64,000 nt of DNA from Cytophagia bacterium (GTDB lineage Bacteria > Bacteroidota > Bacteroidia > Cytophagales > Spirosomataceae). Below the pieces are notes generated by a model. It saw only the letters and a list, made by a program, of their open reading frames with translations, was not told the origin of the DNA and made no database searches. Location of the stretch: contig REAB01000058.1 in NCBI GenBank assembly GCA_004293645.1, forward strand, positions 1 to 64,000. The letters are read 5' to 3'. The stretch's first letter is position 1, and the number at the start of each line of letters is the position of its first letter. Position numbers and translations under genes: made by a program. Positions 12,555 through 14,526 of this stretch are shown piece by piece.

Positions 12555-13709
12555 TTATGCTTCAATCAGCACTTTGGCCAATTCTACCAAATCACCGTCG
12601 TTTACTTCTTTTTTTATGTCGGCCACTTCCAAAAACTGCTGGTAAACAACGTCGAGAGTGGGTTTGTCGAACGAGAAGCCGAGCAGTTCGAGGCGGTGTT
12701 TCAAGGCATGGCGACCGCTGCGGGCGGTCAGTATAATCATAGATTTGTCCACACCCACGTCGTGCGGATTCATAATTTCGTAATTGAGCGAATTTTTCAA
12801 AAAGCCATCTTGGTGAATACCCGATGAGTGCGCAAAAGCATTGCGCCCCACAATGGCTTTGTTGGCCTGCACGGGCATCCGCATCATTTTTGATACCAAT
12901 TGACTCGTTGGAAATAGCAAAGGCGTATTAACGTTGGTGTGATAACCCATTTCGGGGCGTACTTTCAACGCCATTACCACTTCTTCGAGCGATGTATTGC
13001 CCGCTCGCTCGCCAATGCCGTTCATGGTTACCTCTACTTGCCGCGCTCCGTTCATCACACCCGCCAGCGTGTTGGCCGTAGCCAGTCCCAAATCGTTGTG
13101 ACAATGAATCGAAATAATGGCTTGGTGAACGTTGTCGGTGTGTTCAAAAATATACTTTATTTTGTTGCCATACTCGTCTGGAAAACAATAGCCCGTCGTA
13201 TCGGGAATGTTCACAACCGTAGCCCCTGCCGCAATAACCGACTGCACCAAGTGGGCCAAAAAGGCCAAATCGGCGCGACCAGCGTCTTCGCAGTAAAATT
13301 CTACATCTTCTACGTAGCTCTTGGCTTGTTTGACGGCGGCCACTGCTTGCTCCACAATTTTTTCGCGGGTGCTGTTAAATTTATGCTGAATGTGAATATC
13401 CGACGACCCCAGTCCCGTGTGAATACGCCCGCGTTTGGCATATTTGAGTGCCTCCCCCGCCGCGTCAATGTCGCCCTTCACCGCCCGCGAAAGCGCGCAA
13501 ATGATGGGTTCGCGCACGGCCTTTGAAATCTCAACCACCGACCGAAAATCGCCTGGACTTGAAATTGGAAAACCTGCTTCGAGCACATCAACGCCCAGTT
13601 TTTCGAGTTCTTTGGCAATCGTAATTTTTTCGTCGGTTGTTAATTGGCTGCCAGGCACTTGCTCGCCGTCACGCAGGGTGGTGTCAAAAATATAAACTCG
13701 CTGGCTCAT
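12555..13709 (-). CDS. leuA: 2-isopropylmalate synthase, short form
   Basis: This enzyme condenses acetyl-CoA with 2-oxoisovalerate in the first committed step of leucine synthesis. The HMGL-like TIM barrel is complete: [13 protein letters not shown] at the start (catalytic Arg and metal-binding Asp), SDIHIQHKF, then [10 protein letters not shown] and the HCHNDLGLA metal-binding histidines. [18 protein letters not shown] and [12 protein letters not shown] complete the set. At 384 residues it ends where the regulatory C-terminal LeuA dimer domain would begin, so classical allosteric leucine inhibition may be absent. Short forms are usual in Bacteroidota, and related homocitrate or citramalate synthases cannot be fully excluded. 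The leader upstream, with a Leu-rich peptide and terminator, supports the leucine assignment. Confidence 0.9.
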
Positions 13710-13773: not shown

Positions 13774-13808
13774 AAAACGCTCTTTCTCGAATTGAGAAAG
13801 AGCGTTTT
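13774..13808 (-). terminator. Attenuator terminator hairpin upstream of leuA
   Basis: A perfect 15-bp stem (AAAACGCTCTTTCTC / GAGAAAGAGCGTTTT) with a 5-base loop is followed on the minus strand by TTTTTT. It sits 65 bases before the leuA start and downstream of a consensus promoter, so it would stop leuA transcription unless an alternative structure forms. Confidence 0.85.
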
Positions 13809-13832
13809 AGTTTATGCAAACCATACCCTTTC

Positions 13833-13886
13833 TCACGGCGTGCGTGCGAGCAAAAGTGAGCGAAGGGTTTGGTAATGGAATATCAT
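13833..13886 (-). CDS. leu leader peptide, 17 residues
   Basis: The peptide is MIFHYQTLRSLLLARTP. Four of 17 codons are leucine (CTT, then CTT-TTG-CTC in a row), as expected for a sensor of charged leucyl-tRNA. The ATG is preceded by an A-rich stretch, the usual Bacteroidota start context. It lies within the presumed transcript between the promoter at 13938-13968 and the terminator at 13774-13808, and its stop codon falls inside the segment that switches between the two alternative stems. Enterobacterial leuL, with four consecutive leucines, works in the same way, though no sequence kinship is claimed. Confidence 0.7.
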   Translation of the reverse strand: MIFHYQTLRSLLLARTP

Positions 13887-13937
13887 TTTTGGCCTTGAAA
13901 ATCTTGGCGAAATTTCGCTCTGTGCGTATTTCCACCA

Positions 13938-13968
13938 CAAAAGTAGTCGAATATTTTATTGGTGCAAA
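13938..13968 (-). promoter_or_regulatory. Bacteroidota-type promoter of leuA
   Basis: On the minus strand TTTG, a 19-base spacer and TACTTTTG match the Bacteroidota sigma consensus TTTG-N19-TAnnTTTG exactly. Transcription would start near 13930, giving a leader of about 220 bases before leuA. Confidence 0.7.
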
Positions 13969-14012: not shown

Positions 14013-14513
14013 ATGATTATCGTCAAATTGCACGGTGGACTGGGAAAGCAGCTTTTTCAGGACGCTTTTGGGCGCGCTTTTGCCCATTTATTAGGCACCG
14101 AGTTGCAGCTTGATGTTTTTTTGTTGGCAAAGTTTACGTTATTTTGAAGCCATCAAGGCCGAACTTCGCCAAGATTTAGGCTTCCCATTTTTTATTGCCA
14201 AAAATGCCCTGAAATCCGTACAAAAACAAGAAAAAAAACAGCACTATTTTTGTGTTTTCGGGCGATGCAGCTTGGTGTAAAAAACCTTAACACACCAATT
14301 GCAACGGTTTTTGTGGAGAATGTTGTTAATTTACGGAACGAATTTGAGTTGATGTGCCGCTGCAAACACCACATCATGGCCAACAGCACGCTGAGTTGGT
14401 GGGCGGATTGGCTTAACACAAACCTGGCAAAAATGGTGATTGCACCCCAAAGATGGTTCAACGACCATGCCACACGCAGAGTTTATTGCCCAATGATTGG
14501 GAAAAATCAATAG
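14013..14513 (+). pseudogene. Decayed GT11 alpha-1,2-fucosyltransferase-like gene
   Basis: The N-terminus reads MIIVKLHGGLGKQLFQDAFG, the donor-binding start of family GT11, but stops at about 14147. A second block in another frame encodes FSGDAAWCKK, and after a shift in the AAAAAA run near 14280 it continues as NLNTPIATVFVEN. The GT11 C-terminal signature HHIMANSTLSWWADWLN and VIAPQRWF then follow. The whole spans about 500 bases, whereas intact genes need about 870, so a large internal deletion accompanies at least two frame breaks. The product would have used GDP-fucose on a surface glycan. Confidence 0.75.
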
Positions 14514-14526
14514 TTAAAAGTTTACC

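Follow-up and report, generated by a model that had tools for sequence, protein, structure and literature searches.

The leuA locus of this Spirosomataceae genome raises the question of whether the stretch between the promoter and the gene is a full ribosome-mediated attenuator, as an earlier note had proposed, and whether such leader control takes the place of feedback inhibition in a LeuA that lacks its regulatory domain. We analyzed the window, the whole 64,000-nucleotide stretch of DNA in which the locus lies, together with related genomes. The features of the locus, in the direction of leuA transcription, are as follows.

13965-13968, minus strand: -33 promoter element TTTG, read from the sequence
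13938-13945, minus strand: -7 promoter element TACTTTTG (TAnnTTTG), which fits the Bacteroidota -7 consensus
13907-13918, no strand assigned: palindrome GCGAAATTTCGC, 12 bp, a candidate operator at about +16 to +27
13833-13886, minus strand: leader peptide ORF MIFHYQTLRSLLLARTP, 17 codons, with a UGA stop at 13835-13833
13856-13873, minus strand: segment 1, inside the leader ORF, partner of segment 2 (13836-13820) in the MFE structure obtained by folding
13825-13836, minus strand: segment 2 (GUGAGAAAGGGU), common to helices 1:2 and 2:3 and overlapping the leader UGA
13793-13803, minus strand: segment 3, which pairs with segment 2 in the antiterminator and forms the terminator 5' arm
13774-13808, minus strand: intrinsic terminator, segments 3:4, a perfect 15-bp stem with six U at 13777-13772
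12555-13709, minus strand: leuA, 2-isopropylmalate synthase, 384 amino acids, with HMGL-like catalytic and HCS_D2 domains only

The TTTG at 13968-13965, which we take to match the Bacteroidota consensus for a -33 element, is separated from TACTTTTG (13945-13938) by a spacer of 19 nt. The primary sigma factor of the phylum recognizes TAnnTTTG as its -7 box, which lies at -12 to -5 in Flavobacterium psychrophilum according to a transcriptome report (PMC9723704); because the box occupies these positions, the leuA start site is predicted near 13933. The leader MIFHYQTLRSLLLARTP carries Leu at codons 8, 11, 12 and 13 (CUU, CUU, UUG and CUC). Given a standard footprint, a ribosome stalled at Leu codons 11-13 would extend almost up to segment 2 and leave it exposed, whereas a ribosome that has come to the stop codon would cover it; these coordinates fit the order of events in classical attenuation. 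Three mutually exclusive helices can form in the leader: helix 1:2 (13873-13856 with 13836-13820, -21.4 kcal/mol), helix 2:3 (13835-13825 with 13803-13793, 11 bp, -15.9 kcal/mol) and the terminator helix 3:4 (-21.3 kcal/mol). The anatomy claimed in the earlier note was recovered throughout, with a consensus promoter (TTTG-N19-TAnnTTTG on the minus strand), a 17-codon Leu-rich leader peptide (13886-13833), a terminator with a 15-bp stem and U-run (13808-13774, six U) and two exclusive pairings, helices 1:2 and 2:3, sharing 13826-13836; the span it gave, 13774-13968, was correct.

Folding of the leader region, one of the checks that the earlier note had suggested, gave -64.5 kcal/mol compared to -38.5 +/- 3.7 kcal/mol for 200 dinucleotide-preserving shuffles (z = -6.96), with the native leader more stable than 200/200. 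We also scanned for terminators whose 5' arm can pair with a segment further upstream at which a Leu-rich ORF ends. This detector fired once on both strands of the 64-kb window, at the leuA leader only, and produced one match on 60 simulated single-strand windows.

The element recurs in relatives. The terminator finder made calls in 76 of the 101 distinct leuA upstreams, a few of these calls being spurious. For most of the 76, the terminator 5' arm pairs best with a GAGAAAGG-like segment at which a Leu-rich ORF ends. Leaders of the same layout also precede leuA in Parabacteroides; Larkinella, Fibrella and some others are without the element directly before leuA. In an alignment of 64 leaders (A1), GAGAAAGG in segment 2 is conserved and RNAalifold chose the antiterminator 2:3 as consensus unprompted. 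The antiterminator had 84% of cells paired and 46 double-change cells, compared to 26.0 when shuffled (0/500), and the terminator 3:4 had 88% paired and 41 double-change cells, compared to 14.8 (0/500); these counts are inflated by the relatedness of the sequences and are not to be read as probabilities. When either helix was shifted along A1, a smaller percentage was paired, there were fewer double changes and the covariation score dropped. The protector helix 1:2 is strong in the window, but in only about half of the relatives is the leader region more stable than shuffles by over 1 standard deviation (z below -1). The covariation that the earlier note had proposed to look for in related leuA leaders was found in both the antiterminator and terminator helices; it had named the lack of the Leu codons or of the alternative pairing in related genomes as evidence against an attenuator, and in this check related genomes kept both.

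Segments 2, 3 and 4 form the scaffold GAGAAAGG / CUUUCUC / GAGAAAG, a triple that is kept across orders, and a search with the pattern TGAGA..CTTTCTC..GAGAAAG over 59 genomes gave 12 matches, compared to 2 for the reversed-pattern control. The purine arm of the scaffold presumably resembles a sequence complementary to the 3' end of the 16S rRNA of Bacteroidota. Among 57 distinct Leu-rich leader peptides, Leu made up 24.6% in frame versus 8.8% and 5.9% in the other frames. We considered whether the Leu codons could be a by-product of pairing with segment 2 and rejected this, since about 47% of the leader Leu codons in relatives are CUA, CUG or UUR and the ilvD version of the element described below uses other codons. 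As a side observation, CUA accounts for about 21% of the Leu codons in the relatives' leuA leaders versus 4% in the long ORFs of this window, and UUG for 3.5% versus 35%.

A covariance model (R1) run over this genome and its relatives also found the heads of ilvD-ilvB operons. The same genome carries a sister attenuator (L173, G000:C69:10858-10944) with the leader MKLGLIFVGVILILV before ilvD; the identity of IlvD was confirmed, and an ORF for a 23S-rRNA-intervening-sequence protein (23S_rRNA_IVP) lies between the sister terminator and ilvD. The ilvD leaders, which in relatives include MNISKLVNIVLVVILLSCIV and MFRQIINIVLVVILLPKQV, contain 20% Leu, 21% Ile and 18% Val, compared to 26% Leu, 9% Ile and 2% Val in the leuA leaders (start Met left out in both), and the Ile+Val counts per leader differ between the two with p = 3e-6 (8 ilvD leaders). 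The same RNA scaffold carries Ile, Val and Leu codons at ilvD and Leu codons at leuA; codon content therefore tracks the pathway. As far as sequence comparison can establish them, the parts, their order, their conservation, the covariation of helices 2:3 and 3:4 and this pathway-tracking codon content are all in place.

Weak matches of R1 at contigs C189, C65 and C122 of this genome were chance-like and were set aside, and on distant taxa the model lacked the power to chart the distribution of the element across the phylum. An attenuator-like element with the leader MIAIQLNIWSLLLRSKS (L184, G005:C22:65030-65116) lies directly before an apparent EamA-type transporter gene. In family f40 (L218-L230), Ile/Val-rich leaders such as MITPIIITVIIQVIGVQYRPGK are located before a divergent ilvD, about 1.95 kb from leuA, and no attenuator was detected at leuA in this family.

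The recurrence before a second gene bears on the possibility that the hairpin simply terminates constitutively, or is a remnant of some other transcript, with a short ORF beside it by accident. The stem is strong and looks bidirectional, and short ORFs are common. However, the hairpin is flanked directly by a same-strand promoter upstream and by leuA downstream, it does not lie at the end of any other minus-strand gene, the Leu content of the leader ORF is conserved in frame only, and the full layout recurs in relatives as well as before ilvD, leaving this explanation with very little probability. We give about as little credence to direct binding of a ligand, protein or tRNA by the leader RNA, as in a riboswitch, a T-box or a PyrR-like element. 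Conservation of GAGAAAGG / CUUUCUC might be read in that way, and PyrR gave a weak sub-threshold match to the leader (29 bits, cut-off 54). Against this, no Rfam family, Leu_leader included, reached its curated threshold for the leuA leader, and searches at gathering and permissive thresholds returned nothing credible. Moreover, alignment A1 is without a conserved unpaired pocket, what is conserved is the very segment with three-way complementarity, and the codon bias tracks the downstream pathway.

From the evidence in sequence, we propose that the leuA leader is most probably a ribosome-mediated transcription attenuator sensing charged tRNA-Leu, with a probability of roughly 0.92. RNA polymerase would start near 13933 and a ribosome would translate the 17-codon leader. 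When Leu is scarce, the ribosome would stall at codons 8-13 and cover segment 1, leaving segment 2 free, and helix 2:3 would form and allow the polymerase to read into leuA. When Leu is plentiful, the ribosome would reach the UGA inside segment 2 and block helix 2:3, and the 3:4 terminator would form; in a leader that is left untranslated, helix 1:2 would form and lead to termination. The start site, the stalling, the response to leucine and termination in vivo are steps that we infer.

We further evaluated the proposal that leader control replaces feedback inhibition. The leuA gene is monocistronic, its downstream neighbor gene is convergent, and LeuA, whose nearest named relatives are those of Runella, Dyadobacter and Spirosoma, is the sole IPMS encoded in the genome. 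(The plus strand carries, at 14013-14516, a degraded, fucosyltransferase-like gene of glycosyltransferase family 11 that is interrupted by stops and frame changes and has a Glyco_transf_11 match in its C-terminal part, E 2.3e-9.) The statement in the earlier note that this LeuA has no regulatory domain is correct, as LeuA_dimer is absent from LeuA and from the whole 90.8%-complete genome. The idea that the attenuator exists because LeuA lost leucine feedback, with leader control standing in for allosteric control, has in its favor that LeuA is short in all Spirosomataceae tested and that leuA attenuators are widespread in the family; in the Spirosomataceae tested, the sole LeuA_dimer is on a second, citramalate-synthase-like paralogue. 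However, one genome (G051) encodes a full-length LeuA with LeuA_dimer and still has a Leu-rich attenuator 199 nt upstream, and two others (G132 and G167) combine a full-length LeuA with LeuA_dimer and an Ile/Leu-rich attenuator about 5 kb upstream. Short LeuA without a detected attenuator is found in many class-level genomes: 17 further ones (L276-L292) gave no attenuator within about 20 kb upstream, absences that are soft, since the detectors miss true cases and, at the threshold used on class-level genomes, the detector recovers 50 of 110 near-set leuA upstreams. E. coli has both attenuation and LeuA feedback, which also counts against substitution. Attenuation and feedback loss are not tightly tied, and we consider it unlikely that the one exists on account of the other; of the earlier proposal, the full ribosome-mediated leuA attenuator is supported and the replacement of feedback inhibition is not supported as a rule (G051, G132, G167; L276-L292).

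The palindrome at 13907-13918 points to another layer of control. Exact GCGAAWWTTCGC is present in 62 of 101 related leuA upstreams, and in shuffled leuA upstreams even a one-mismatch GCGAAWWTTCGC occurs in only 0.9%; a lone chance match was rejected on these counts. In 59 of the 62 leuA promoters, GCGAAWWTTCGC starts exactly 19 nt past the TTTG of the -7 box, while the next ATG follows at any distance between 1 and 75 nt, in most cases 1 to 15 nt. Since it is the promoter, rather than the leader, that fixes the spacing, the constraint points to a DNA site. Exact GCGAAATTTCGC occurs in this genome at leuA only; among the one-mismatch copies, one has the same promoter context, that of ilvD (G000:C69:10797-10808). 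In relatives, palindrome sites are located before leuA, before ilvD (also directly before it) and before the gene of a RamB-like regulator. We weighed the alternative that GCGAAWWTTCGC works in the RNA, as a hairpin at the 5' end of the leader, instead of as a DNA operator. As part of the predicted transcript, the motif could fold into a stem of 4 bp around a 4-nt loop, although the MFE structure contains only three of these pairs. Its fixed spacing to the -7 box and widely variable spacing to the next ATG argue against an RNA role, as do its retention directly upstream of ilvD or leuA where no attenuator exists and its presence ahead of other genes (regulator, pckA, malate synthase) for which no such leader was seen, making the hairpin an improbable explanation.

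The regulator encoded next to these sites is about 480 amino acids long and combines XRE HTH and M78/IrrE-like domains, the architecture of RamB, the regulator of acetate metabolism. Its best NCBIfam match beyond the HTH is RamB (E 2.5e-11 and 1.3e-8), at 43 and 34 bits, far under the equivalog cut-off of 700, so that it is not RamB itself and is RamB-like in architecture only. The regulator gene with its palindrome site is divergent from malate synthase in one relative (G044) and from a PEP-carboxykinase-like (pckA) gene, named by sight, in another (G017). The exact palindrome lies within 250 nt upstream of 10 of 30 regulator genes, compared to 0.02 expected from shuffles. This genome has two copies of the regulator gene, on contigs C174 and C157 (G000), one of them with a one-mismatch palindrome 83 nt upstream. 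Regulator and promoter palindrome occur together in 33 genomes, with 2 having the palindrome only, 8 the regulator only and 16 neither (p = 7e-7, a value that ignores kinship).

Given this pattern, a second, promoter-level control of leuA through the palindrome GCGAAATTTCGC is likely. We hypothesize that the RamB-like protein binds GCGAAWWTTCGC, the palindrome being its candidate operator. Whether leuA and ilvD of Spirosomataceae are under dual control, by a RamB-like XRE/M78 regulator at GCGAAWWTTCGC and a tRNA-gated leader attenuator, we suggest tentatively, as a possibility with less than an even chance. The leuA product consumes acetyl-CoA. In such a scheme, the regulator, perhaps as a reporter of the acyl-CoA or acetate status, would act a short way past the start site, at GCGAAWWTTCGC, and the attenuator would gate next, on charged tRNA-Leu at leuA or on Ile/Val/Leu tRNAs at ilvD. 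We did not find GCGAAWWTTCGC described as a regulatory motif in the open-access literature searched.

Ribosome-mediated attenuation is scarcely documented in Bacteroidota, and the present family has covarying helices and, within a single genome, a leuA version for Leu paired with an ilvD version for Ile/Val/Leu. Its covariance model can be run on other genomes, and the palindrome with the RamB-like regulator is a cheaply testable candidate for promoter-level branched-chain amino-acid control in Spirosomataceae. The coexistence of short and full-length LeuA in the class also makes it testable whether attenuation compensates for a feedback-free LeuA. A 2010 survey (PMC2965389) described leader-peptide systems as then known only from Proteobacteria and Actinobacteria, and added Firmicutes; a leuA attenuator in Bacteroidota may have been predicted earlier, in the 2010 comparative survey of Lopatovskaya and colleagues, which PMC4833913 cites. 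In Bacteroides thetaiotaomicron, short ORFs reminiscent of leader peptides have been reported (PMC7366714). In F. psychrophilum, a member of the same phylum but another order, transcriptome data are reported to hint strongly at attenuation by leader peptides upstream of operons for amino acids, and the available part of that report describes no leuA scaffold, covariation or operator (PMC9723704).

The leuA leader shares with the enterobacterial leuL and trp-type attenuators an amino-acid-rich leader, the 1:2, 2:3 and 3:4 helices, a terminator and a biosynthetic gene downstream. It differs from them in having no Rfam match and a scaffold of its own (GAGAAAGG / CUUUCUC / GAGAAAG), and in its setting, with a monocistronic leuA, a LeuA without the regulatory domain, a Bacteroidota promoter and an added palindromic site. 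The sister ilvD element resembles the ilv leaders (ilvGMEDA, ilvB and Corynebacterium ilvBNC) in its Ile/Val/Leu-rich leader, but is built on another scaffold in another lineage, with the ilvD-ilvB gene order in relatives. The actinobacterial LEU element likewise has a leader ORF with a run of Leu codons upstream of leuA, as here; in that element, however, the Leu codons and the Shine-Dalgarno box pair in a pseudoknot, and reported mutations argue against classical attenuation (PMC1262725). The attenuator described here belongs to a known class, and the proposed link between the palindrome, as operator, and the regulator is the newer part of the findings.
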